A stretch of 54,385 nucleotides of DNA, taken from IMG/VR virus record IMGVR_UViG_3300042868_009577, positions 1-54,385 of that record; one strand, written 5' to 3'. Positions 64 through 13,235 of this stretch are shown piece by piece (the stretch's first letter is position 1; each line of letters starts with the position of its first letter). The translations under genes and the position numbers were made by a program. The notes under the pieces are model-generated. The model saw only the letters and a list, made by a program, of their open reading frames with translations. It searched no databases and was not told the origin of the DNA. The stretch is from a virus.

Positions 64-154
64 GAAAACTTAAAAAATAAAATTATTTTTTTTTAATAAA
101 TTAATGATTTACCTTATATTTTAGTAAATATTGGCCTTCAAATTGCCTTGACGA

Positions 155-162
155 TATTTATT
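155..162 (+). promoter_or_regulatory. Late-type motif TATTTATT, 3 nt before the first envelope gene
   Basis: TATTTATT sits 3 nt before the ATG at 166, the same geometry as TATTTATA before the terminase, portal and other late genes in this window. It supports 166 as the start and marks the envelope cluster as late-expressed. Confidence 0.5.
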
Positions 163-165
163 GTT

Positions 166-708
166 ATGGCAAATAATAATAGACTAAATGTGTCTCTGAT
201 ACCCATTTTTGTGGTATTAGGGTTTTTTGGGATGTATTCTTACATCGTAGATCCTTTACAGGAAACAAAGGCGGTATACATTTCTGGGGTAGAAAATAAC
301 ATCAAAATTGGTAAACTAACTAATAATAGAAGTTTAGCTTTTGGTGCTAAAAACATTTTCCAGGAAATATTACAAGATAAAGATTTTATAATTGTTGAAG
401 ACGCAAAATCAGCTGATTTAATCTTTAGTGCGGAAATACTATACTTTGATGTAAATAAAACTAAACGAAATATCTCCGTATTCCATTCTGATGTTGAAGA
501 AACGTTGGTGGTAATGAGGGGTAAGTTGAGTGATAAGTCTGGTAAAAAACTTAAGGAAGTTGTTGCCGAAGAATCTAGCTCAGAGATTTCAACATCGACA
601 TTAATAACAGACGAAGGTAGTGATAAAGTAAATCAACAAGCACTATCGTCAGCAATAAAGAAGACCTGCGAGTCTTTAATTAATAAAGCATTTTTTAATA
701 AAAAATAA
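166..708 (+). CDS. Membrane-anchored LptE/CsgG-like envelope protein
   Basis: A 180-residue protein. I chose ATG 166 over an upstream TTG at 148 because of the TATTTATT motif 3 nt before it. Residues about 8-28 form one hydrophobic segment (LIPIFVVLGFFGMYSYIV), likely a signal anchor. The rest alternates strands and helices and contains a stretch (NNRSLAFGAKNIFQEILQD, then SADLIFSAEILYFDV) that resembles the LptE / CsgG-type periplasmic fold, where such proteins assist outer-membrane assembly or secretion. No lipobox Cys is visible. The next gene starts 1 nt after the stop, so it heads a coupled envelope operon. The family assignment rests on pattern only; a generic periplasmic protein is the alternative. 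Confidence 0.5.
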   Translation: MANNNRLNVSLIPIFVVLGFFGMYSYIVDPLQETKAVYISGVENNIKIGKLTNNRSLAFGAKNIFQEILQDKDFIIVEDAKSADLIFSAEILYFDVNKTKRNISVFHSDVEETLVVMRGKLSDKSGKKLKEVVAEESSSEISTSTLITDEGSDKVNQQALSSAIKKTCESLINKAFFNKK

Positions 709-709
709 T

Positions 710-2350
710 ATGAAAAATTTAATTTTATTTATTGGGGTATTTTTAATATCTCTACCATCATTCAGTCAATTAACCGTTAATCAAACGGTAACCCCAGGTG
801 GACCATATATGGTTGGTGATACGTTAACCGTAAAATATACTGTTGATAGGGGGGTCACATTACCTCGTTATTTCTGGTTAAGATATTCATTTAACAATAA
901 AGCGTTAACAATGGTATCAAATAGTACTGTGTTTTCACAAGGTAGTTCTACTCAGACATTTTTCACTGGTTGGAATAACTTTATATTCACCCCAGCAGCA
1001 AATATTGCTGCAACCAGTTTGTACGCGCAATATCTTGCAACACCATGGGCTTATACCGCAAATAATGATTGGAATGTTGGACAAATAACAATCCAAAGGA
1101 CTGATGCCGCAATTAATGGTGATATTGCAACACAAAAATATGTGATTAAAGACCAAAATCAATATAATGATATTCATAAATTAGATTTAGCATACGCTAT
1201 TAATGACGCTTCGGCAAACATTTCACCAATAACTCGCAACGCAACTAATTTATCATTAACTGGCGTTAGTGGTAATACCTCGCAATTTAAAGTAAAAGTA
1301 TTATTCCCACAAGGTTACGGTATTTCTGACCACAATGTTCAATTAATGAAATTAAAAACAGATGGTAGTGGTGATATTGATTGGTCAAAACAACCTATTG
1401 CACAATTACCATTAGACGCTAGTGGGGAGGCTCTTTTTACAACGCAAGTTAAAGTGGGCGACTCAGTTGGTGTGTTTGTTGGGCCAGCAATGCAAAAATC
1501 ATGGATGAATAATATTGTTACAGTATCTGACGCATATAAAGCTTTCCTAGGTCATTCACAAACTGATATTGGTGGTACCGCAAACTTCTTTACTTATCCA
1601 ATTTTAGAAAAGAAAGTTGGTTTAATTACAAAAAACAAAACTGAATTTAGTGAATCGGATTCTTACTATCTATTCGCGCATGTAATGGGTATTAATGTTG
1701 ATAGTCCAGCTATGATACCTACATCGACTTCAACATCGGTAAGATGGTATAGTGGTTTATTAAATCAAAGCTGGTTAGACGGTGTTGTTAAAAATAAAGT
1801 TATTATCGATTCACCAGTAAAAGAAGTTCATGCTGTTTTTGCTTGGGGTGGTGATTTAAACTGGTCACATTCATCTGATCCATCAGTAATTGCTACAAGA
1901 ATTAGTAGTGGATTATATACAAATTCGATAAACAATAAAACATCAATGTCAACGCAGGTGATGTCTTATGTTCCAGCAGCATTAGAGACCGCGAAATTAT
2001 CGGTTGTTTCCGCTTTGGAAAATGGTAAGGTTGTATTAACAACAAACCTAACAAAAGAAGGATTAGCTGGTTTAGAAGTTATTATGGAGTATGATGAATC
2101 TAAATTACAATTAGATAACGTTGTTTTTGATAGCGGTTCAACTATAACCAATTTTTCTACACATAAAGATGGTAGATTAACATTTGGCTCTATGGATCAA
2201 TTAAAAACATCTAGAATTAAAACTGGGACACCATATAAATTAATATTCACACCTAAGGTGGCACTTACAAATACTGCAGGTTTATTCTATTTTGTTTTAT
2301 CCGATGCTGTTGATGCTAGTGGTAAGAAAATAAACTTAGTAATAGAATAA
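710..2350 (+). CDS. Secreted protein with degenerate dockerin-like and C-terminal cohesin-like modules
   Basis: 546 residues. Residues 1-19 are a signal peptide ending in SFS before Gln20, the typical Bacteroidota cleavage context. The N-terminal half is beta-rich and unrecognised. Around residues 268-325 a dockerin-like block begins with IVTVSDAYKAFLG and continues to ESDSYYLFAHVMG, but its Ca-loop aspartates are largely missing. Residues about 425-546 look like a cohesin-type beta-sandwich (GLEVIMEYDESKLQLDNV). The C-terminal half is clearly paralogous to the next gene (VTVSD, ESDxYxL, W-x-GDxNxSHS are shared). Stop and next ATG are 1 nt apart. Predicted to act outside the inner membrane, perhaps on the cell surface. 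A virion role is less likely because of the signal peptide. Confidence 0.6.
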   Translation: MKNLILFIGVFLISLPSFSQLTVNQTVTPGGPYMVGDTLTVKYTVDRGVTLPRYFWLRYSFNNKALTMVSNSTVFSQGSSTQTFFTGWNNFIFTPAANIAATSLYAQYLATPWAYTANNDWNVGQITIQRTDAAINGDIATQKYVIKDQNQYNDIHKLDLAYAINDASANISPITRNATNLSLTGVSGNTSQFKVKVLFPQGYGISDHNVQLMKLKTDGSGDIDWSKQPIAQLPLDASGEALFTTQVKVGDSVGVFVGPAMQKSWMNNIVTVSDAYKAFLGHSQTDIGGTANFFTYPILEKKVGLITKNKTEFSESDSYYLFAHVMGINVDSPAMIPTSTSTSVRWYSGLLNQSWLDGVVKNKVIIDSPVKEVHAVFAWGGDLNWSHSSDPSVIATRISSGLYTNSINNKTSMSTQVMSYVPAALETAKLSVVSALENGKVVLTTNLTKEGLAGLEVIMEYDESKLQLDNVVFDSGSTITNFSTHKDGRLTFGSMDQLKTSRIKTGTPYKLIFTPKVALTNTAGLFYFVLSDAVDASGKKINLVIE

Positions 2351-2351
2351 T

Positions 2352-4649
2352 ATGAAGAAATTATTAGTAATATGTTTTTTACTAATCTCATTTTTAGGGT
2401 TCGGACAGAGTGTATCTGCTCCGGACTCTAAGTCATTTATACCCTCCACAAACGGACAAGATGCAAGTGGGTTTGTATTGAGTGGATTTAGCTCAACATC
2501 AACTTTATTAGCGTCAATCAGTTTAGTTAATCCACCAACAAATACTACGTTCTATCTTAATACAACAACGGGTTTAACCGCAGCAAGTGGATTTACTTTA
2601 ACAGGTAATAAAACTCGTTTAGTGGTAACAGGTACAATGGCTAATATCAATAATGCATTAGCATCTTTAAAAATAACCACAGGCTCGGTAGTCGGTAATG
2701 TTCAAATATCGGTAGCAGCAACTGTTAATCCTGTTGGATTTTTCTACAATGGTGTAAATGGACACTTTTATAGACCAATATCAACAGGTACAACATACAC
2801 TGGAGCAAGAGCCGCATCGTTATTAACAACATTCAAAGGACAGACAGGGTATTTAGTAACAATAACATCGGCATCGGAAAATGCTTTTATATTTGCTAAT
2901 GTACCACAAGCTAATATATGGTTTGCGGCAACCGATGAGGTTAGAGATGGAACTTGGGTAATAGATGCTGGACCTGAAAAGGGGACGGTAATGAAAACCT
3001 CAAACGGACAAACGGCGGGTAATATTCCAGGTGTGTATAACAACTGGGCACCTGGTGAACCAAATGGTAATAATGGTAGTGAGAATTATGCGGTAACAAA
3101 TTGGAATGGTCAATCAACGTGGAATGATTTATCAAACAATTGGAATAATCCCTATATAATTGAATATGGAACTTGGACTAATCCCGATGATGCAACATTT
3201 ACTGAATTTTACACAAATTCGGTAACACACACAAACGGAGATGTTTTAACTGCAAGATTCAATTTTGATTTTGGACCTAATGTTGATGAGACTAAATTTT
3301 CAGCAAAAGCAAACACATTTGTAAATAATACATGGGGTACAACAACAAATACGTCTAGAGCAATAAGTGGATTGGGTAAAGTTGATATTACAAACGATTT
3401 GGATGCTGTAAAAGTTAATAATGGCGGTACTAGAGCAACAACAACCACTGGGGATGTAGAATGGTGTGTGATATATGATTATGACGCAATTAACCAAAGG
3501 TATAGAATTGGTATTGATAGTAGAGAGGTTAATGGGGTAGTTTCAACACCATCTACAATCACTAGTTTACAGTTATTTGATTTATGGAATGGCCCTGTAA
3601 CATTTAATTCATATGATCCAAATGGATGGACTGAAGTTTATGTTTACACATCAACTCAATTTAATTTTTCTGGTTCGTCATTTGCTTCGTTTATTAGGGC
3701 CGGAAACGGATTTTACGGTTTAAGAGCTGAATTTGCATTTACACTAATTCAATCTTTTAAACAACATGGAATTGATTTATCATACACAAATCAAACGGAT
3801 TTAAACACGTTGTATAATAGCATTGTAACTGTTTCAGATGTGTTTATAGCATTTAAGGAATTATCAAATGGTGGCATATTTGGCGATCAAAGCGGGAATG
3901 AATTTACAAATGGTATTCAGTTTATGAATGCAGATGTGGACGGTAATGGTGTGTTTAACGAATCTGATACATATAAATTGTTACAACATTTAACAGGGGT
4001 AACAACACTAACACAATATTCCGCGTTAACCTATTTGATGAAACTTTATAATAAATCGGATTACGATGCGGTCACTAAATCTAATTGGAAAACACAATTA
4101 AATTCAACAAGAAGTTTATTACCGTTTAACTTGAATAGTGGTACACTTAATAATACCTATAACGTTAGCGTGACTTGGATTGGGGATGTGAATTTATCCC
4201 ATTCGGCACAACAAACTGTTAGCTCTGTTGCTAGTAATTCTATGAGAACTATGAGTTTATCAACTAACTCAGTTTCAAATCAAATAAATGCTTACCTAAT
4301 GGGTGAAAATATTGGTGGTAAAGTCATTATAACAATATCGATAGATCCATTACAGCAAGAGTTAGTTGGAACACAATTTCAAATAAATTATGACAATACC
4401 GCGTTAAAATTTGAAAAAGTTGATTTTAAAACAAAAGGCAACCCAACAAATTTTGGTGTTGACGGGGGCACTTATATTAATTTAGGTTCATTAATTACAG
4501 ACGGATCGACATTATTAGACAAAACAACAGAATATAAATTAACATTTATTCCTCAGGTTGGTATTGAGGGGGTATTAGGTTTGACGTCATTATCTGCTAC
4601 TGATGCGGTAAATAAAGCCGGTGGTCAATTAAAAGTAAAAGTTAACTAA
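2352..4649 (+). CDS. Secreted C-type lectin protein with dockerin-like and cohesin-like modules
   Basis: 765 residues. The signal peptide ends LGFG before Gln19. Residues about 55-127 resemble the beta-sandwich repeats of Bacteroidota adhesins. Residues about 130-273 are a C-type lectin-like domain: the helix TYTGARAASLL, then TGYLVTITSASENAFI, the sugar-binding EPN at 236-238 and WND at 257-259. In animal lectins EPN goes with mannose-type ligands; that ligand preference is inference here. A dockerin-like block follows with a good calcium loop (DVDGNGVFNESD) after a VTVSD helix, and the last ~110 residues are cohesin-like. It is the intact paralogue of the preceding protein. The stop overlaps the next start (TAATG). 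Likely function: carbohydrate-binding surface protein. Confidence 0.7.
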   Translation: MKKLLVICFLLISFLGFGQSVSAPDSKSFIPSTNGQDASGFVLSGFSSTSTLLASISLVNPPTNTTFYLNTTTGLTAASGFTLTGNKTRLVVTGTMANINNALASLKITTGSVVGNVQISVAATVNPVGFFYNGVNGHFYRPISTGTTYTGARAASLLTTFKGQTGYLVTITSASENAFIFANVPQANIWFAATDEVRDGTWVIDAGPEKGTVMKTSNGQTAGNIPGVYNNWAPGEPNGNNGSENYAVTNWNGQSTWNDLSNNWNNPYIIEYGTWTNPDDATFTEFYTNSVTHTNGDVLTARFNFDFGPNVDETKFSAKANTFVNNTWGTTTNTSRAISGLGKVDITNDLDAVKVNNGGTRATTTTGDVEWCVIYDYDAINQRYRIGIDSREVNGVVSTPSTITSLQLFDLWNGPVTFNSYDPNGWTEVYVYTSTQFNFSGSSFASFIRAGNGFYGLRAEFAFTLIQSFKQHGIDLSYTNQTDLNTLYNSIVTVSDVFIAFKELSNGGIFGDQSGNEFTNGIQFMNADVDGNGVFNESDTYKLLQHLTGVTTLTQYSALTYLMKLYNKSDYDAVTKSNWKTQLNSTRSLLPFNLNSGTLNNTYNVSVTWIGDVNLSHSAQQTVSSVASNSMRTMSLSTNSVSNQINAYLMGENIGGKVIITISIDPLQQELVGTQFQINYDNTALKFEKVDFKTKGNPTNFGVDGGTYINLGSLITDGSTLLDKTTEYKLTFIPQVGIEGVLGLTSLSATDAVNKAGGQLKVKVN

Positions 4650-5542
4650 TGAAAAAACTATTAATAATTCTGTCACTAATTTCGATAACATTTGTTACAA
4701 ATGCACAGATACAAAAACCCGACACGTTGCAACTATCCGCAAAAGAATTATTTGGGGAAAGTGATGATTGGAATGATGTGGGTATATTACAATCCTATGT
4801 TAATTTTTCAAAGGATGTCTTATCATCATCAAACCTTTCGGTTGGTATAATTGGTAGGCAGGTTTCCACAACACTTAATTTAGGGTATCAGAAATCATCA
4901 AAAAACGGGCAATGGGGACACTCATTTGCAGCATCTATAAATCCTATATGGGACTATTATGGTGTTGGTTATGGCCTAAGTAGAAACACAGAAAAAAGAA
5001 CTACCACAATACAAACATTTTATTCTACGGACTTTGACTTTCAAAAAGATATTAACCTATCATTTATTGATGTGTTTAGAACCGAAAAATGGGGGACATT
5101 TGGTTATAGTTTAACAGCATCAAAATCATTTTGGGGAACATACCAAGGTGAATGGGAAGGAAGATACACGGTGGATGTGAATGGAGATTTTTTAGATTTA
5201 ATATATCCACAAATGCCAGCATCATCCGAACTTACTTATAGAGGTATGGTGATGTATACGTACACACTAAAAACAAAGAGGGTAGACATTTCGCCACAGG
5301 TATTTGCTATGAGCGATATATACAAAGTATTTAAAGATGGCACCGAATCAGATTTGGCATATGTAGATGACTTCAATTTGGACTTGTATTATGGGCTATC
5401 TATGAACTGGAAAATAACTAAAAGATTTGTATTGAATACTAATCTTAGATACAACACAACTTGGGATAAGTTATCAGAATCCGTAGGATATAAAAAGGCA
5501 AATCCAATCCTATTTATGATAGGAACAAACTTTAAATTCTAA
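4649..5542 (+). CDS. Outer-membrane beta-barrel protein
   Basis: 297 residues. The signal peptide ends TNA before Gln20. The mature part consists of alternating amphipathic strands rich in Tyr, Trp and Gly, and the protein ends in Phe (IGTNFKF), typical of outer-membrane barrels recognised by the BAM complex. It shares blocks with the barrel encoded at 9577-10995: (V/L)xISPQ(V/I)FxM, GxFGYxL and K(I/L)(T/S)KRF. Both ends overlap the neighbouring genes by 1 nt (TAATG), so it is translationally coupled to the lectin protein and the following lipoprotein. It could anchor or export the surface proteins encoded upstream; a porin-like or receptor-blocking role is also possible. Confidence 0.7.
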   Translation: MKKLLIILSLISITFVTNAQIQKPDTLQLSAKELFGESDDWNDVGILQSYVNFSKDVLSSSNLSVGIIGRQVSTTLNLGYQKSSKNGQWGHSFAASINPIWDYYGVGYGLSRNTEKRTTTIQTFYSTDFDFQKDINLSFIDVFRTEKWGTFGYSLTASKSFWGTYQGEWEGRYTVDVNGDFLDLIYPQMPASSELTYRGMVMYTYTLKTKRVDISPQVFAMSDIYKVFKDGTESDLAYVDDFNLDLYYGLSMNWKITKRFVLNTNLRYNTTWDKLSESVGYKKANPILFMIGTNFKF

Positions 5543-5886
5543 TGAAAAAATTATTATTAATATCATTTATTTTATTGGTTGGGTGTACAAAACCAGAATT
5601 ACCGTTACCTGACGTTATAGCAAAGGATGACATATTTGCCATTAATGAAAGTACTGTGATTAATGGCCAATCGATATATTTTAATTTACCGGTTGCCGGG
5701 ATATATACATTGACATTAATAGATAAAACAACCGGGCAAGTCATTAGCCGAGAAAGATTTACGGGCCAAAATGGTGAAAATGTTAAGAAAATTTATACCA
5801 AAAGTATTTCGGGCAAGTATTTATATTTATTACTAGAAGATATTGATAAAAAAGAACTAAATAAAACAACATTAATAATTAAGTAA
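5542..5886 (+). CDS. Lipoprotein with a C-terminal beta-sandwich
   Basis: 114 residues. The N-terminus has a charged start, a hydrophobic core and the lipobox LVGC, so Cys15 should be lipidated by host Lgt/Lsp. The remaining ~95 residues are a small beta-sandwich (AGIYTLTLIDKTTGQVIS, then SGKYLYLLLED) that resembles the C-terminal sorting domains of type IX secretion substrates or an Fn3-like fold. It is similar to the next lipoprotein, suggesting duplication. It starts inside the stop codon of the barrel gene. No enzymatic motif is visible; a structural or partner-binding role is inferred. Confidence 0.65.
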   Translation: MKKLLLISFILLVGCTKPELPLPDVIAKDDIFAINESTVINGQSIYFNLPVAGIYTLTLIDKTTGQVISRERFTGQNGENVKKIYTKSISGKYLYLLLEDIDKKELNKTTLIIK

Positions 5887-5887
5887 A

Positions 5888-6259
5888 ATGAAAAAAACGG
5901 TAATATTCGCGTTAATTGTGGTTGGGTTAGTAGGTTGTTCAAAGGATGATATTTTTGAACTACCAACTCAGCAAGTTACTCCAGCCCTACAAATAAAAAA
6001 TTCGGTTGGTATTAAGCTAGAAACTGCCTTTGTAACTAATGAGGTTGCAATGAACGTAAAGATTGATGTTGAGCAACCAGTAACAATAAAGATTTTTGAT
6101 ATTTCCAATAAAGTTGTCTCTAAGGAGGTTGTAACGGTTAAAGCTGGTGATAATATACTAAAAGTATATACTTCAGCATTACCATCATCAGCATATAGAA
6201 TCGGATTATTTGATTCTAAAAACAACCAATTAGGAATTACAGATTTTAATAAACTATAA
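5888..6259 (+). CDS. Lipoprotein with a candidate surface-export signal (CSKDD)
   Basis: 123 residues. The lipobox LVGC places lipidated Cys at 17. It is followed by SKDDIFE, an acidic stretch close to the lipoprotein export signals that send lipoproteins to the outer face of Bacteroidota outer membranes. Residues about 65-120 (VTIKIFDISNKVVSKEV, then SSAYRIGLFDSKNN) resemble a type IX secretion C-terminal domain fold and align with the preceding lipoprotein. It is the last gene of the first tightly packed block; 17 nt follow before the next gene. Surface exposure is predicted; the function is unknown. Confidence 0.65.
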   Translation: MKKTVIFALIVVGLVGCSKDDIFELPTQQVTPALQIKNSVGIKLETAFVTNEVAMNVKIDVEQPVTIKIFDISNKVVSKEVVTVKAGDNILKVYTSALPSSAYRIGLFDSKNNQLGITDFNKL

Positions 6260-6274
6260 ATAAAAATATAAATA
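6255..6274 (+). promoter_or_regulatory. Two TATAAATA boxes just before the gene at 6277
   Basis: TATAAATA occurs at 6255-6262 and again at 6267-6274, 2 nt before the ATG. This is the orientation of the classical T4 late promoter, opposite to the TATTTATA motif seen elsewhere in this window. In AT-rich DNA this could be chance. Confidence 0.3.
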
Positions 6275-6276
6275 TT

Positions 6277-6996
6277 ATGGCAGACAAAAACGGAGACGGA
6301 ATAGTATATCATCGCTCAGATTGCGGTGACAATTATGTAAGAATGTATGGTAATGGTGGAGATTGGGATGGTTCAATATGTGAAACATGGGGACTTAGTT
6401 CTAGAGCAATAGCATATATTCACGCTCATCCTGAAATAAATCATAGAATTGAAGATGTAACTGGTAGAGAGTGGAATGAAGAAGTTGCGCCAATAATTGA
6501 TTTGGTTGAAAAACAAATAGTATCTGAAATTAAAGAAGGGTATGAAGAAGTAAAAGAAGGTGTAATAGATGCATACCAATGGGCAGATAAAAATGCTTGT
6601 AATATAGCGGTAACCGCAGCTATTGGATTGGGTTGTGCAGCAGCATTTGCACCAGAACAACCTGAAGGTGCAGTAGCATCAACCACATTATCATTTATGG
6701 CACAACCAATTCTTTATACTGCAGATAAAGCAGCTAAAGTGGTTGTAGTAATGGCAATGACTGAAATTATAACAGAAGGATTTTTAGCAATACCATACGT
6801 TAGTGATAGTATTGACCATACACTATTAAAAAATATAATTTCAAATTGTTTAGGTAAAAGTTTAGATTCTGCAGAGTTATGGGCAACACCGGCTGGAGTT
6901 GGTATTGCAATTGGAGCGGCATTTGCACCAGTTATTGCAGATTTGATATGTACAAAAACTTGTCCTGAAGGATTTACTAAAGCGTTTGGTGTATAA
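6277..6996 (+). CDS. Unknown protein with two hydrophobic helices and paired cysteines
   Basis: 239 residues, not recognised. The N-terminal ~75 residues are polar and rich in Asp, Gly and Trp. A helical, charged linker follows at about 85-115. Then come two Ala/Gly-rich hydrophobic stretches: NIAVTAAIGLGCAAAFAP at about 110 and GVGIAIGAAFAPVIADLIC near 210, separated by a moderately hydrophobic helical region. Several cysteines lie next to the hydrophobic segments. There is no signal peptide. It lies between lipoprotein genes and small membrane-protein genes, which suggests membrane insertion or pore formation, but no family can be named. Confidence 0.5.
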   Translation: MADKNGDGIVYHRSDCGDNYVRMYGNGGDWDGSICETWGLSSRAIAYIHAHPEINHRIEDVTGREWNEEVAPIIDLVEKQIVSEIKEGYEEVKEGVIDAYQWADKNACNIAVTAAIGLGCAAAFAPEQPEGAVASTTLSFMAQPILYTADKAAKVVVVMAMTEIITEGFLAIPYVSDSIDHTLLKNIISNCLGKSLDSAELWATPAGVGIAIGAAFAPVIADLICTKTCPEGFTKAFGV

Positions 6997-7057
6997 TATT
7001 AAACATTTGAGGTATTTGGGTGGTAATTAAATAAACTAAAAATTAAAAACAAATAAA

Positions 7058-7384
7058 ATGTCAGAAGAAGTAGAAAATGCAAATGACGGAACTTTATCCG
7101 GATTAAAAAAGACTATTATCGGTGTAATAACAACAGCTGTAATGGGATTAGGTACCTGGGGTATAACTCAAATAACAGGTGGTGGTGATGATCCAGCACC
7201 AGTACAGCAAGCCGCACCAGTAATTAATATCACTAACTCTAATCAGCAACAACAATCAGCTGGAGGGGGTAAAACGGTGATTATTAAAGAAAAGGCCGGG
7301 TCAGCCCAACCAGCAGCTCAACCAGCCGCTAAGCCTAAGAAAAAAGAAGGTGATGAGTTTAAAGAAGAAGCACCAAAGTGGTAA
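7058..7384 (+). CDS. Small single-span membrane protein with a Pro/Gln/Lys-rich tail
   Basis: 108 residues. After a short acidic N-terminus, residues about 18-41 form one membrane segment (TIIGVITTAVMGLGTWGITQI). The C-terminal ~65 residues are low complexity: QQQQ, AQPAAQPAAKPKKK and an acidic/basic end. This layout resembles periplasm-spanning spanin-like or TonB-like proteins, but no catalytic or lipobox residue is visible. An A-rich 62-nt leader precedes it. It lies in a run of four small membrane-protein genes (7058-8554), so a role in lysis or envelope bridging is plausible but unproven. Confidence 0.5.
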   Translation: MSEEVENANDGTLSGLKKTIIGVITTAVMGLGTWGITQITGGGDDPAPVQQAAPVINITNSNQQQQSAGGGKTVIIKEKAGSAQPAAQPAAKPKKKEGDEFKEEAPKW

Positions 7385-7412
7385 TAATTTAAAGTTAAAC
7401 TAGAATATTAAA

Positions 7413-8021
7413 ATGAAAGAAGAAGCAGGTGGTTTTAAGGAGCTATTAGGTAATATGATGAAACGTAGATGGTTCATCACTGCCATCGTATTAGGTGGAT
7501 TTATGATAATCATTATGGGGATATTTGGGGCAATCCTAAATAAATCCGCAATTGAAGGAGAATGGAAAGAACTTCTACTATTGTTATTGGGTGCTTTCAT
7601 TGGTTCTTATGGTAAAATCATTGACTATTGGTTTAGTGATACCGATAAGGATAAAATGTTAGTTCAGAAAATGGATGAGGAAGATGGCACATCATTAAGT
7701 AATACTGCCGATTTACCAAATAATCCAATAGTTCCAACCAATGTATTTCCATTAGTTTTACCAACAAGTGAGGAAGTTAGTGGGGAAGTTGGACAAACTG
7801 TCCAAGCAACTGTCCAACCTAAAGTAGGTGTTGAAGTGGATGAAGATGGTGACGGTGTAATGGATGGTTTAGATTTCGATGGTGACGGTAAAATCGATGA
7901 ATATTTTGCACACAGGCAATGTGAACACGTTTGGGGTGACTTAGACGGTGATGGAACTGAAGAATGTCTAAAGTGTGGTAAAGTTAAAGACGAATATGCT
8001 GAGATGCATATGGAAGGATAA
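7413..8021 (+). CDS. Two-span membrane protein with calcium-loop and zinc-ribbon tail
   Basis: 202 residues. Two hydrophobic segments (about 20-42, WFITAIVLGGFMIIIMGIFGAI, and 53-67, LLLLLLGAFIGSYG) resemble a holin-like hairpin. A polar linker leads to three DxDxDG loops (DEDGDGVMDGLD, DFDGDGKIDEYF, DLDGDGTEE) of the thrombospondin-type-3/dockerin/EF-hand kind. The last loop lies inside a likely zinc ribbon, C-x-H before it and C-x-x-C after it. The combination of membrane hairpin, calcium loops and zinc site in one small phage protein is unusual. It could sense or hold divalent ions at the envelope; whether it is a holin is uncertain. Confidence 0.5.
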   Translation: MKEEAGGFKELLGNMMKRRWFITAIVLGGFMIIIMGIFGAILNKSAIEGEWKELLLLLLGAFIGSYGKIIDYWFSDTDKDKMLVQKMDEEDGTSLSNTADLPNNPIVPTNVFPLVLPTSEEVSGEVGQTVQATVQPKVGVEVDEDGDGVMDGLDFDGDGKIDEYFAHRQCEHVWGDLDGDGTEECLKCGKVKDEYAEMHMEG

Positions 8022-8052
8022 TAAACACAAAAAAAAACAAAAAACAAAAATT

Positions 8053-8322
8053 ATGGGATTTTTAAAAGATTTATTTAACGACAACAACACAATTAATGAA
8101 AAATCAGTTGTTGGATTCGCGTCATTCATTATGATGGTAATATCATTGGTTGTAGACTTGGTGACAGGTTGGTTGGGGAAAGAGTTACTTATCAATGAAT
8201 TTATTTTCGATGGGTTTTTAGTTATTACTCTTGGTTCATTTGGTATTGCATCCGTTGATAAATGGATAAATAACAAAAATTCAAATAAAAAAGACGATAG
8301 CCAAGATGTTATCGAAGGTTAA
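8053..8322 (+). CDS. Small two-span membrane protein, holin-like
   Basis: 89 residues from ATG 8053. The frame is open upstream to 7975, but that part overlaps the preceding gene and the sequence just before 8053 is A-rich like other leaders here, so the shorter form is preferred. A short amphipathic N-terminus (MGFLKDLFNDN) is followed by two membrane segments (about 18-38 and 48-66) and a charged tail. This matches the general layout of class II holins and of small phage membrane proteins. No endolysin gene is visible nearby, so the holin call is tentative. Confidence 0.5.
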   Translation: MGFLKDLFNDNNTINEKSVVGFASFIMMVISLVVDLVTGWLGKELLINEFIFDGFLVITLGSFGIASVDKWINNKNSNKKDDSQDVIEG

Positions 8323-8332
8323 AATTAAATAT

Positions 8333-8554
8333 ATGACTATTAATTTAGAAAAAATAAAAGAAGCAATGGCTTCAACCATGTTAATGATGGCGATGGCTTG
8401 GGTAATATTTGCGTTATCATTTCAAGTATACTTTCTTTTCTTACACGTAACAGATAATAACGAAGAGATAAGTAGAATCACCAATGAGTTGACGATCAGA
8501 ATAGATGGCCGATTTGTAGACAATCCTAAAAATGTGTTCTATAATGGAAAGTAA
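8333..8554 (+). CDS. Small single-span membrane protein
   Basis: 73 residues from ATG 8333; the frame extends upstream to 8306 inside the previous gene, but that extension is basic and unlikely. Residues about 10-38 form one long hydrophobic helix (MLMMAMAWVIFALSFQVYFLFL), with a polar C-terminal tail of ~35 residues. It lies between the two-span protein and the CsgG-like gene; the next start is 1 nt after its stop. Possibly an accessory lysis or envelope protein; not recognised. Confidence 0.45.
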   Translation: MTINLEKIKEAMASTMLMMAMAWVIFALSFQVYFLFLHVTDNNEEISRITNELTIRIDGRFVDNPKNVFYNGK

Positions 8555-8555
8555 T

Positions 8556-9275
8556 ATGAAAAAAATATTTTTATTATTATTCATCACACTTTTTAGCACA
8601 TCGTTATTTGCCCAAACTATTGGTAAAACGCAAACAGAACAATATAAAGCATCGTTTGAGACTGCAATTGATATTTCGCGTTTCTTAGATTATGACGGTA
8701 AACAAATTCCAATTCAGATCTTAAAAGCTGGAATTAGTGATGAAATGTACGAGATGTATCCCGAACTTAAAGAAAAAAGAGTAGGTTTAGGCGTTGCAAA
8801 TATTTCAATGGAATATTTAGAAAACTTAAATCGTTTTAAGTTTACAGAAGATAAAACGGAAATTAAAAACCGAATGGTTAAACAATTCCAAGCATCTCAA
8901 GCTGGTATTTCTGAAAATAAATTAGATGGTAGAGGTAAGATCAACTTAGCTGAATATTTTGTGACAATTGAATGTTATGATTATTCTGTATCAGAAGATG
9001 AGACTGTAAACTTAAAAGACGGTGTTAAAAATCTAATGGTGACTCGTATCGGTTTACAAGTTAGATTTACTAACGCTGAGACTGGTGTTGTTTTTTCAGG
9101 ATCTGGTCTTGGTGAAGCAAAAACAACTAGAGAGTTAACATTATTATCAGACGCAACCGTTGATGAAGTTAAGTTTAACCAATCAACTATTTCAATAGCA
9201 ACAAAAAAAGCTTTAGACATTGCGTGTGCTAGAATATTAGACAGAATGATTAAAAAAGGAATTTTTGAAAAATAA
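8556..9275 (+). CDS. CsgG-family-like exported protein
   Basis: 239 residues from ATG 8556. Eight in-frame codons lie upstream, but the hydrophobic signal peptide begins at MKKIFLLLFITLF and ends LFA before Gln19, so 8556 is the start. The mature part has the alpha/beta pattern of the CsgG family (curli secretion channel): a central MVTRIGLQVRFTNAETGVV strand pair and a C-terminal helix with IATKKALDIACARILDRMI. No lipobox Cys is present, unlike true CsgG, so it may be a periplasmic relative. It overlaps the next gene by 1 nt. Role inferred: export or assembly of the surface proteins encoded in the same cluster. Confidence 0.55.
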   Translation: MKKIFLLLFITLFSTSLFAQTIGKTQTEQYKASFETAIDISRFLDYDGKQIPIQILKAGISDEMYEMYPELKEKRVGLGVANISMEYLENLNRFKFTEDKTEIKNRMVKQFQASQAGISENKLDGRGKINLAEYFVTIECYDYSVSEDETVNLKDGVKNLMVTRIGLQVRFTNAETGVVFSGSGLGEAKTTRELTLLSDATVDEVKFNQSTISIATKKALDIACARILDRMIKKGIFEK

Positions 9276-9577
9276 TGAAAAACGTAATTTTAACTACACT
9301 ACTATTGCTGACGTTTGGTTGTGCACCGGTTAGGTATGTTTATGTTGATCAAAAAGATTCAGTGATAAGAAAACAAAGAGTGGTGTATGATAACATGTAT
9401 GTTCCATCACCATTTTTTTTTAATTATAATTGGGGGCCACCGTTTTATACACCAATAATAATACAAAGACAAAGACCTGTCTTAAGGCAAGCACCCGTTG
9501 TTACCCCTAATAGACCAAGTAGATCACAACCAAGACTAAGTAGACCGATTCCGCCAAGAGTGCCGAAAAATAGATAA
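9275..9577 (+). CDS. Small Pro/Arg-rich lipoprotein
   Basis: 100 residues. The hydrophobic N-terminus ends in LTFGC, an acceptable lipobox with lipidated Cys at 16. The mature part starts with APVRYVYVDQ, then is aromatic (SPFFFNYNWGPPFYTP) and ends with a basic, proline-rich tail (PSRSQPRLSRPIPPRVPKNR). No acidic export signal follows the Cys, so it is more likely to face the periplasm, where the basic tail could touch peptidoglycan. It is coupled at both ends by TAATG overlaps to the CsgG-like and barrel genes. Confidence 0.6.
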   Translation: MKNVILTTLLLLTFGCAPVRYVYVDQKDSVIRKQRVVYDNMYVPSPFFFNYNWGPPFYTPIIIQRQRPVLRQAPVVTPNRPSRSQPRLSRPIPPRVPKNR

Positions 9578-10995
9578 TGAAAAAATGGTTAATAAGTTTA
9601 TCAATAATTCTTCTGTCGTTATTCGTTAATAAAGCGATAGGCCAAACTTATACCCAAACATTTGTAGATAGGTGTACCGGAGAACGTAAAGTTGCGACAA
9701 CCACAATGATTAATGGGAATGCTACCGTATCTTTCTATAATCAAGTTAGAACGTTTAGCCCTATCGAAGTTCAAACCGGTGTAGTTCAGAGTTGGTTACT
9801 TACAACTAAAGCTACCTACGAGGCTATTACGTGTCCTGTAATCAATAATCCAATAGTACAGCAAGCGGTAACAAACGCGGCCGCACAAGCAGCTAGTAAT
9901 GCCGCAGCTCAAGCGGCTAGTTCTGCTGCATCTAGTGCTGCCTCAAGTTCTGCTGCAACAGCGGCAAGCTCGTCAGCAAGTAGTGCTGCTAGTTCATCCG
10001 CAAGTAGCGCGGCTAGTTCATCGGCAGGTAGTGCAGCGGGTTCATCAGCAAGTGGCGCCGCTAGCTCACCACCGCCGGCGTCATCGAGTTCAAGTGGTTC
10101 TGGCGGTTCTAGTAGTTCATCATCGTCAAGCACAAAAACTGAAGCTAAAACAGAAAGTAAAACAGAAAGTAAAACAGAAAGTAAAACAGAAAGTAAATCA
10201 GAGACAAAAGAAGAATCAAAAACCGAAAGTAAAAGCGAAGAAAAAAAGGAAGAATCAAAAACAGAGGAAAAAAAGGAAGAATCTAAAGAAGAAAAAAAGG
10301 AAGAAAAAAAGGAAGAAAAGAAAAAAGAAAAAGCTGCGGTGTCGAATCCTATGTTGTTATCGTCTGATTTGTCAACAATTGAGACACCAGAGGGTAGGTG
10401 GTTACAATCCGCAACTATTGGTGTATCCAAATCATCATTAATGGGTGATAAGAGTTATTCCGCAAATACTGTTATAATGAGCGATCTGAAAACTTTTATT
10501 GTTACTGGTGGATTCACTAAAATGGATTTTTCGAATGGTAAATTAAACGCAATACATTCATATTCATCATCTTTTGCTTATTTGAATGGTAATTACATGA
10601 ATTTATTAGGTTATACCTGGATAAAACCAACACAGAAGAAAGGTGTGTTTGGATATAATTTGGGATTAATAAATCTATTATTAAAAAATTCAAAAAGTGG
10701 GTATGACTACAACACTTCAACATCAGTTGTGGCGTTTTGGACCAAACCATATCAATACAGTAAAAAATTAACCATATCGCCACAGATATTCACAATGTTT
10801 GCTCCAATATCTTGGAATAGTGTGGCGGGCACGTCCACAATAAACAAAAATATGGGATATCTTATTGGTTCATCATTTGATTACAAACTAAGTAAAAGAT
10901 TTGGGCTTAGTATCAATTATAAACTAAGTGGTAATACTGCAGATGGGTCACCATTATTAAGTAATGTCTTGATTGGATCAAGAATGATTTTATAA
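9577..10995 (+). CDS. Outer-membrane barrel with long Ala/Ser and Lys/Glu low-complexity linker
   Basis: 472 residues. The signal peptide ends KAIG before Gln23. Residues 23-100 form a small beta-rich domain with two Cys (33 and 86). Residues 101-184 are almost entirely Ala, Ser and Gly, and 185-251 are Lys, Glu, Ser and Thr in short repeats. Residues about 260-472 form a beta-barrel-like domain paralogous to the one at 4649-5542 (LTISPQIFTM, KLSKRFGLSINY). It closes the envelope cluster. The disordered linker could span periplasm or reach outwards from the barrel. The barrel call is fair; the function is unknown. Confidence 0.6.
   Translation: MKKWLISLSIILLSLFVNKAIGQTYTQTFVDRCTGERKVATTTMINGNATVSFYNQVRTFSPIEVQTGVVQSWLLTTKATYEAITCPVINNPIVQQAVTNAAAQAASNAAAQAASSAASSAASSSAATAASSSASSAASSSASSAASSSAGSAAGSSASGAASSPPPASSSSSGSGGSSSSSSSSTKTEAKTESKTESKTESKTESKSETKEESKTESKSEEKKEESKTEEKKEESKEEKKEEKKEEKKKEKAAVSNPMLLSSDLSTIETPEGRWLQSATIGVSKSSLMGDKSYSANTVIMSDLKTFIVTGGFTKMDFSNGKLNAIHSYSSSFAYLNGNYMNLLGYTWIKPTQKKGVFGYNLGLINLLLKNSKSGYDYNTSTSVVAFWTKPYQYSKKLTISPQIFTMFAPISWNSVAGTSTINKNMGYLIGSSFDYKLSKRFGLSINYKLSGNTADGSPLLSNVLIGSRMIL
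10147..10194 (+). repeat. Four perfect tandem copies of a 12-nt unit
   Basis: AAAACAGAAAGT is repeated four times without mismatch inside the barrel gene, encoding K-T-E-S repeats. Being a multiple of 3, copy-number change would lengthen or shorten the linker without a frameshift. Confidence 0.85.
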
Positions 10996-12615: not shown

Positions 12616-13038
12616 TTATAATGATACTTCAAATCTATCTTTCATTTGATGGATTTTTTCTTCTGGTACGTTGTGTACATTAACCCCATCGTGTCTATTT
12701 TCAACTATAACTGAATGGATTCTATAGTTATATCTTTCAGCCATTTCGTAATATGGTTTCATTTCCCATTCTTGGGTAAATGTGTTTGCAACAACTATTT
12801 TATAAATTCCTAGTTTCATTTTTTCCGCGCATTTCTGTTGACACATATTATGCGCTTCTTTAATTCTATCTGGTTCAAAATTATACACACCATTTGAATC
12901 AACAAATAAATCATCCGCAGATAAAACTGTGTTAGTTGTTAATTGTGGACTATTTAAAATAGCATCACCTAGCGTACTTTTACCTGATCCAGGAATACCT
13001 CTTAATAGTATTAGGTCACCAATAAAATCTTTTTCCAT
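12616..13038 (-). CDS. P-loop polynucleotide kinase-like protein
   Basis: 140 residues. A Walker A motif GIPGSGKST lies at 14-22 after a hydrophobic strand. LSADDLF follows at about 40, and a VVANTFTQEWEM block at about 82 corresponds to the switch strand of the AAA_33/zeta-toxin/T4 Pnk kinase-like P-loop family. It lacks the phosphatase half of T4 Pnkp. Placed directly before the RNA ligase, it most likely phosphorylates 5'-OH RNA ends for sealing. It starts within the stop of the small membrane-protein gene upstream (TAATG) and shares its host-type promoter. A different small-molecule kinase cannot be excluded. Confidence 0.75.
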   Translation of the reverse strand: MEKDFIGDLILLRGIPGSGKSTLGDAILNSPQLTTNTVLSADDLFVDSNGVYNFEPDRIKEAHNMCQQKCAEKMKLGIYKIVVANTFTQEWEMKPYYEMAERYNYRIHSVIVENRHDGVNVHNVPEEKIHQMKDRFEVSL

Positions 13039-13187
13039 TATTCTTTTTTTATAAATATTTCTAGTTTTTTTACCCTTTCGTCTAGTTTTTTTACCTCGGT
13101 TTTATAATGTTTAGCGATTAAAAAAACAAAAGAAATCATTATTATGGTTATAACCAATAATGATAATGTATATGTGTCTTTTTTCAT
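13038..13187 (-). CDS. Small membrane protein with a coiled-coil tail
   Basis: 49 residues from ATG 13187. A longer in-frame start at 13235 would overlap the promoter, so the short form is preferred. Residues about 7-27 form a membrane segment (LSLLVITIIMISFVFLIA), followed by a charged heptad-like helix (TEVKKLDERVKKLEIFIKKE). It is the first gene of the RNA-repair operon and overlaps the kinase gene by 1 nt. Function unknown; it might tether or regulate the repair enzymes, or be an unrelated early membrane protein. Confidence 0.5.
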   Translation of the reverse strand: MKKDTYTLSLLVITIIMISFVFLIAKHYKTEVKKLDERVKKLEIFIKKE

Positions 13188-13204
13188 TTTATAATGATTA
13201 TAAT

Positions 13205-13235
13205 TAAAGATAAAGATTTTTTTTCTAAAAAACAA
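13205..13235 (-). promoter_or_regulatory. Host-type promoter of the RNA-repair operon
   Basis: On the minus strand TTG (13235-13233), 20 nt, then TATCTTTA (13212-13205), a one-base departure from the Bacteroidota TTG-N-TAnnTTTG pattern. It lies 17 nt upstream of the ATG at 13187, implying early transcription by host RNA polymerase. Confidence 0.6.

Follow-up and report, generated by a model that had tools for sequence, protein, structure and literature searches.

Curli-type operons encoding CsgG and CsgF have been described in T4-like pelagimyophages (HTVC008M and its relatives) and in the methylophage Melnitz, and either 'sibling capture' or the control of lysis has been proposed as the role of these phage CsgG operons (PMC7029224, PMC9004378). 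In HTVC008M, the CsgG operon lies just before the baseplate genes and is accompanied by CsgF, curlin-repeat proteins, a FecR-like protein and a cyclase. Two proteins of this phage (KC465899, 8871-9557 and 10638-11963) both carry curlin-type QxGxxN-like repeats, and this 'partial' curli operon may have fibre subunits of its own; the FecR-like and cyclase genes lie in the same stretch.

The cultured Flavobacterium phage vB_FspM_immuto (Immutovirus, 160 kb) carries, as genes 13-19, a short version of the cluster considered here, in the row exported nuclease, C-type lectin protein, exported protein, cohesin protein, g8, g12, g14-type and g1-type (gene names as in the list below). The isolation host of immuto is Flavobacterium sp. 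LMO8, and the host of this relative is thereby fixed. The two clusters share homologs of g8 (42% identical), g12 (51%) and the N-terminal domain of g14, together with g1-like, lectin and cohesin proteins; however, the immuto cluster is shorter, lacks g4, g5 and g6, adjoins replication genes and is annotated mostly as hypothetical. Moraphages (large freshwater phages of Flavobacteriia) resemble the present virus in habitat, size and predicted host phylum, and the paper on them is silent on genes for curli, lectins or cohesins (PMC12619734). No description of the cluster was found among open-licence papers that link phages to cohesin/dockerin proteins or to type IX secretion.

On a cellular chromosome, an Ignavibacteriales operon (JAIOYW010000006.1) resembles the cluster in that a CsgG homolog adjoins a CsgG/g1-like paralog, with an N-domain barrel further along; it differs in that the CsgG homolog is lipidated, cyclase and transglutaminase-like genes are present, and lectin and cohesin proteins are missing. 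This operon of a metagenome-assembled genome (9992-17428: CsgG lipoprotein, CsgG/g1-like paralog, transglutaminase-like protein of 825 aa, CHASE2-like cyclase and barrel) is likely an uncharacterised envelope system.

The locus analysed here consists of 14 co-directional open reading frames (ORFs; g1-g14) on the (+) strand at positions 166-10995 of the IMG/VR virus record IMGVR_UViG_3300042868_009577, the whole 54,385 bases of which are referred to herein as the window; all 14 predicted ORFs are present and lie within it. As in HTVC008M and Melnitz, a T4-like phage places a CsgG-type pore gene within an exported operon; unlike HTVC008M, the window has no curlins or recognised CsgF, its g12 lacks a lipobox, and in place of the curli parts it encodes lectin- and cohesin-like proteins, two barrels, paired lipoproteins and an anchored g1/g11. 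Because of this composition, the Bacteroidota cassette may work like the curli system, but is not one. The original prediction, which proposed an exported multi-protein structure and knew of no described phage system of this composition, is upheld as to a phage-encoded, exported set of proteins that is conserved as a unit under late-type regulation; its claim of novelty has to be qualified in view of the pelagimyophage and Melnitz CsgG/CsgF operons (PMC7029224, PMC9004378) and the short version in immuto. The features of the locus are as follows.

150..165, + strand: putative late-type promoter element (GATATTTATTG), with TATTTAT at 155-161, directly before g1
166..708, + strand: g1, exported CsgG-like periplasmic protein, core; by alignment, with likeness to the paralog of the Ignavibacteriales CsgG homolog (over one stretch) and to immuto 15954
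710..2350, + strand: g2, optional; secreted, its C-terminal module with dockerin-like and cohesin-like features; Pfam Cohesin E 0.064, g2 to g3 hhalign 99.6, 28/41 loci
2352..4649, + strand: g3, core; secreted, with a C-type lectin domain and a C-terminal module of dockerin/cohesin-like type; Lectin_C 25.9 bits, 41/41 loci
4649..5542, + strand: g4, optional; predicted beta-barrel of the outer membrane, paralogous to that of g14; AF2 barrel of low confidence (pLDDT 58), 80 loci
5542..5886, + strand: g5, lipoprotein with small beta domain, paralog of g6; CTKPEL, no strong surface-export signal
5888..6259, + strand: g6, lipoprotein; C-x-K-D-D signal for surface export and a beta-sandwich like that of T9SS CTDs; C-x-[KR]-[DE]-[DE] in 27/57 unique relatives
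6277..6996, + strand: g7, accessory; membrane protein for which the TM count predicts three segments, no signal peptide; 26 loci
7058..7384, + strand: g8, probable inner-membrane protein, core; 41/41 loci, 42% identical in immuto, from consensus
7413..8021, + strand: g9, N-terminal membrane segments, DxDGDG loops and Cys4-type motif, core; 37/41 loci, from consensus
8053..8322, + strand: g10, small 2-TM membrane protein, holin-like by topology only; 28 loci
8306..8554, + strand: g11, putative inner-membrane anchor domain, a separate gene here and fused to g1 elsewhere, from fusion counts
8556..9275, + strand: g12, core; putative export protein of the CsgG type with a signal peptide and no lipobox; fold match and homology to an Ignavibacteriales lipoprotein
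9275..9577, + strand: g13, small lipoprotein (CAPVRY) without surface-export signal, accessory; 9 loci
9577..10995, + strand: g14, N-terminal domain, long linker and predicted C-terminal outer-membrane barrel, core; 40/41 loci, N-domain common to immuto 14444

Export signals and domain content

The genes are tightly packed, and the single-nucleotide overlaps noted earlier occur at four junctions (g3/g4, g4/g5, g12/g13 and g13/g14); four others have a 1-nt gap, g10 and g11 overlap by 17 nt, and the rest are 17-61 nt apart. Most of the genes had been predicted to encode signal peptides, lipoboxes or membrane segments, and indeed 13 of the 14 cluster ORFs score by a signal-peptide/lipobox/TM rule against 2 of the 46 other ORFs in the window (Fisher p = 2.7e-10), the exception being g8, which is weakly hydrophobic near its N-terminus. 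With signal peptide or lipobox alone, the counts are 11/14 and 1/46 (p = 1.2e-8). The rule is home-made, simple and crude; the contrast between the cluster and the rest of the window is not. The set also contains internal duplications: the barrels encoded from 4649 and 9577 (g4 and g14) are paralogous as predicted (hhalign probability 93, E 3e-7), g2 and g3 have about 260 C-terminal residues in common, and g5 and g6 form a further pair of paralogous lipoproteins; these last two pairs are additions to the original prediction.

The C-type lectin domain of g3 passes its Pfam cutoff (PF00059, Lectin_C; 25.9 vs 22.6 bits). The 260-residue module common to g2 and g3 resembles dockerin plus cohesin, but the Pfam cohesin/dockerin scores of the window proteins are sub-threshold (13.9 vs 24.1 and 14.2 vs 22.9 bits), and of this part of the original prediction the cohesin is clear in the cultured relative immuto, the cohesin protein of which passes the Pfam cutoff at 36.7 bits. 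That protein (immuto 12691) also bears a true C-terminal type IX secretion (T9SS) sorting domain (TIGR04183, E 9e-12), which suggests that immuto may send its cohesin protein out by the host type IX route. Like type IX cargo of Bacteroidota, window proteins combine a signal peptide with a C-terminal beta-sandwich; unlike such cargo, none of them scores above the sorting-domain cutoff (TIGR04183/PF18962), g6 reaching 13.8 bits against 27. A likeness of g6 to Por_Secre_tail is seen in 22 of 26 members, each time below the cutoff (best 3.7e-4), and its homology to the immuto T9SS domain is not significant. Profile matches of g6 in the PDB were mainly to designed repeat proteins near its N-terminus and were discarded.

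A second route to the surface may serve the lipoprotein g6. A C-x-K-(D/E)2-type signal directs lipoproteins to the cell surface, as shown in Capnocytophaga (PMC5080379), and the CSKDD of g6 in the window matches this signal after the lipidated Cys; with R allowed for K, C-x-[KR]-[DE]-[DE] is found in 27 of 57 unique g6 relatives. We do not call g5 and g13 surface-exposed, because they lack a surface-export signal. As for curli components, tandem curlin QxGxxN repeats are absent from the cluster, in which we find isolated single matches in g3 and g5; no cluster protein has a Pfam match to CsgF or CsgE, and HTVC008M CsgF has no hhalign match to the four families compared with it.

The CsgG-like proteins and their proposed membrane partners

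At the level of sequence, the Pfam CsgG family (PF03783) matches none of 22 g12 members, sequence-profile searches of the PDB with g12 (and with g4) gave no matches, and hhalign comparison of g12 with HTVC008M CsgG and other single HTVC008M proteins gave no significant match. The AlphaFold model of g12, of moderate confidence (pLDDT 74), has its best PDB matches in CsgG (4uv2; E 1.6e-7, probability 1.00, TM 0.45-0.50), and its best match in a viral library is a phage CsgG (E 7e-7). Furthermore, g12 is 37% identical over nearly its full length (hhalign 99.9) to the Ignavibacteriales lipoprotein introduced above, which passes PF03783 (28.6 bits vs a cutoff of 20.8) and is the sole cellular g12 relative found; across 396 sampled genomes of the phylum, the g12 profile matched in just one. 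Given the fold match and the homology to a Pfam-passing protein, we assign g12 to the CsgG superfamily as a predicted CsgG-type export protein, in agreement with the earlier description of the cluster as containing CsgG-like proteins. Its signal peptide ends in AQ and, unlike that of CsgG, has no lipobox.

By alignment, g1 is a shorter periplasmic CsgG-like relative. In 42 loci, g1 and a g11-like membrane anchor form a single gene, and a free g11 occurs in 16 loci, including the window; no locus has both. Such an alternation of fused and separate forms is a classical sign that g1 and g11 would be two parts of one complex. Consensus sequences make g8 and g9 candidates for the inner membrane as well: the consensus of g8 has one N-terminal hydrophobic segment followed by an N/Q-rich and then K/E-rich tail, and that of g9 shows calcium-type DxDGDG loops that hardly vary, together with a Cys4-type motif. 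The slot of g10 is filled in 30 loci by an alternative small 2-TM family, c10. In g14, the linker spans approximately 164-241 aa and is Ala/Ser-rich, then Lys/Glu-rich; homology of g14 to the Ignavibacteriales barrel is not significant. Foldseek returned only generic barrels (BamA, NanC) for the poor g4 model (pLDDT 58) and was not used to assign g4 to a family.

Conservation, exchange and late-type regulation

Co-occurrence of the genes in related phages, proposed as a check on the original prediction, is extensive. A scan with g4 recovered 90 viral stretches, and the order g1 g2 g3 g4 g5 g6 (g7) g8 g9 (g10/g11) g12 (g13) g14 is kept, with few exceptions, in the 80 of these that were examined, so that about 80 IMG/VR contigs of up to 335 kb hold the cluster in the same order; the g12 profile finds at least 555 relatives in IMG/VR. 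Among 41 g12-profile loci with enough flanking DNA, g1, g3, g8 and g12 are present in all 41, g14 in 40 and g9 in 37, compared with 28 for g2/g5/g6 and 19 for g4. From this per-gene occurrence, the core that stays together is g1-g3-g8-g9-g12-g14, and the remaining genes are optional. In comparisons with the nearest relatives, dN/dS falls at roughly 0.06-0.2 where dS was measurable, which indicates purifying selection. Among phage records, the first 24 kb of the window had no nucleotide match, and g14, g4 and g2 as tblastn queries gave nothing notable.

The T4-like head genes reported to follow the cluster in the window are indeed there (portal, terminase, head protease and major head protein), and they allow the history of the cassette to be set against that of its carriers. 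Portal, terminase and capsid concur in dividing 14 long contigs into three lineages, approximately 76-87, 58-69 and 30-46% identical to the window in these proteins. Divergence of g12 is uncorrelated with that of the portal (Spearman rho 0.05, n=105 pairs): mean g12 identity is 82% whether portals are 41 or 85% identical, and g12 of the far lineage is up to 87-89% identical to that of the window, as against 75-86% in close relatives. Because g12 identity is independent of portal identity, g12 moves between phage lineages, and the fixed gene neighbourhood implies that the cassette moves with it. The cassette is probably non-essential, since among five long contigs chosen by portal alone g12 is present in three and absent from two (one of them 287 kb). 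In the same survey of head genes, terminase matches L294/L295 (G402, G409) and capsid matches L316/L318 (G411, G405) were seen to contain one in-frame stop (TGA or TAA), which could reflect an intron, an intein, recoding or sequence error.

A late-type motif had been noted before the first gene. It is present, 11 nt before g1, as TATTTAT, which is not TATAAATA but closely resembles its reverse complement; we take it to be the T4 late box read in reverse complement. The window contains 47 copies of TATTTAT, which lies at most 70 nt upstream, on the coding strand, of 18 of the 60 window genes (e.g., 23026, 26307, 27089 and 48156), where approximately 2 would be expected and its reverse complement precedes 7; the genes so preceded include portal, head protease and g1. 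Upstream of g1 it is found in 48 of 63 relatives, compared with 16 of 63 for the reverse complement. TATTTAT is thus a probable late-promoter element of this phage lineage. Literal TATAAATA was rejected as the late promoter, being no more frequent than in shuffled sequences, whereas the strand-specific TATTTAT is enriched, and an occurrence of TATTTAT before g5 was discounted because it lies inside conserved g4 codons.

Of the families in the variable slots of relatives, class 3 lipase occurs in 18 loci, FeoA in 16, metallophosphoesterase in 12, an exported endonuclease in 11, and a TonB-receptor-type barrel and its accompanying lipoprotein in 10 and 9, respectively; judged by these families, their predicted functions are mostly envelope-directed. 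The lipase sits between g9 and g12 (L020 13654-14394 and 17 other loci), and the TonB-dependent-receptor-type barrel and lipoprotein pair lies within the cluster in approximately ten contigs (e.g., L058 13122-15596, L069 17914-19113). Beyond the cluster, a small putative lipoprotein of family c16 (19 related loci) is encoded on the minus strand at 13038-13235 of the window, near genes for an RNA ligase and a ClpA-like ATPase.

A proposed display complex and its alternatives

We favor, with a probability of roughly 0.55, the reading that these genes are a cassette, expressed late and exchanged horizontally between phages, whose products assemble a trans-envelope complex for export and display in infected Bacteroidota, with adhesion as its likeliest use; the carriers would be large viruses of freshwater Bacteroidota that exchange a ten-kilobase set. 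According to this model, g12 would form a ring-like CsgG-type pore in the outer membrane, and g1, with g11 as its inner-membrane anchor (a separate protein or a fused domain), would together with g8 and g9 tie the pore to the inner membrane, with g14 (barrel, long linker and periplasmic N-domain) as an outer-membrane partner. The gate, and the lipoprotein and type IX routes of the host, would then coat the cell with g3, with g2 where present and with the lipoprotein g6. Displayed late, these proteins might hold neighbouring cells, glycans or virions together around lysis, from which progeny could reach new hosts. Adhesion is preferred because it agrees best with folds of the lectin and cohesin type and with late timing, and immuto supports display in that a lectin protein is paired with a T9SS-sorted cohesin protein beside homologs of g8, g12 and g14. 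The model is weakened by the missing curlins, CsgE, CsgF and g12 lipobox, by the sub-threshold cohesin/dockerin scores of g2 and g3 and by the quality of the g4 and g12 models. A larger claim, which we advance tentatively and rather doubt, is that the cassette represents a previously undescribed class of phage-built trans-envelope secretion and display machines for Bacteroidota (a CsgG-type gate, an inner-membrane-anchored CsgG-like adaptor, a linker-barrel and a cohesin-dockerin-lectin adhesin coat) traded between distant lineages.

The displayed proteins and the altered envelope could instead mask receptors and block adsorption or injection by other phages. Superinfection exclusion of this kind would suit the accessory slots of relatives, with their exported DNA/RNA endonuclease, lipase, metallophosphoesterase and TonB-receptor-type barrel with lipoprotein, as well as the exported nuclease that adjoins the immuto cluster. 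However, exclusion genes are usually expressed early and g1 follows a late-type motif, and no match to known exclusion proteins rises above noise; we regard exclusion as unlikely.

Next in order, and improbable too, is a lysis or release module, in which the small membrane proteins would serve as holins, with the outer membrane disrupted by the pore and the lipoproteins, by analogy with the published proposal for Melnitz CsgG (PMC9004378). A GH19 endolysin lies upstream of g1 in 13 loci and would fit a role in lysis too, and the 2-TM proteins g10 and c10 occupy one slot; yet the endolysin is missing from most loci, no holin, spanin or lysis family matched any window protein (g8-g11 included) above noise, and the lectin and cohesin proteins have no obvious place in lysis, for which the cluster encodes far more proteins than are needed.

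The proteins might also be fibres or decorations of the virion that merely look exported, as the late-type motif and the downstream RNA ligase, from a family annotated as catalyzing tail-fibre attachment, would allow. Lectin and Ig-like folds are common on phage tails, but T4-like tails assemble in the cytoplasm, where signal peptides, lipoboxes, beta-barrels and a CsgG-type protein have no place, and the Sec signals thus render ordinary virion parts very unlikely. Host DNA joined by misassembly, named beforehand as a possible refutation and suggested by domain types typical of Bacteroidota surface proteins, can be rejected, as independent viral contigs in the same order, genome-scale contigs with portal, terminase and capsid, a cultured phage and the near absence of g12 from the sampled genomes of the phylum all speak against it.

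Phages are not usually thought to build a secretion apparatus on their host. Two separate T4-like phage groups, one infecting SAR11 and OM43 hosts and the other Bacteroidota, are now each seen to carry a CsgG-centred exported operon, and what a lytic phage gains from an outer-membrane export pore hence becomes a general and testable question. The abundance of the cassette, together with the movement of g12 between lineages whose portals are approximately 40% identical, points to a strong selective benefit.
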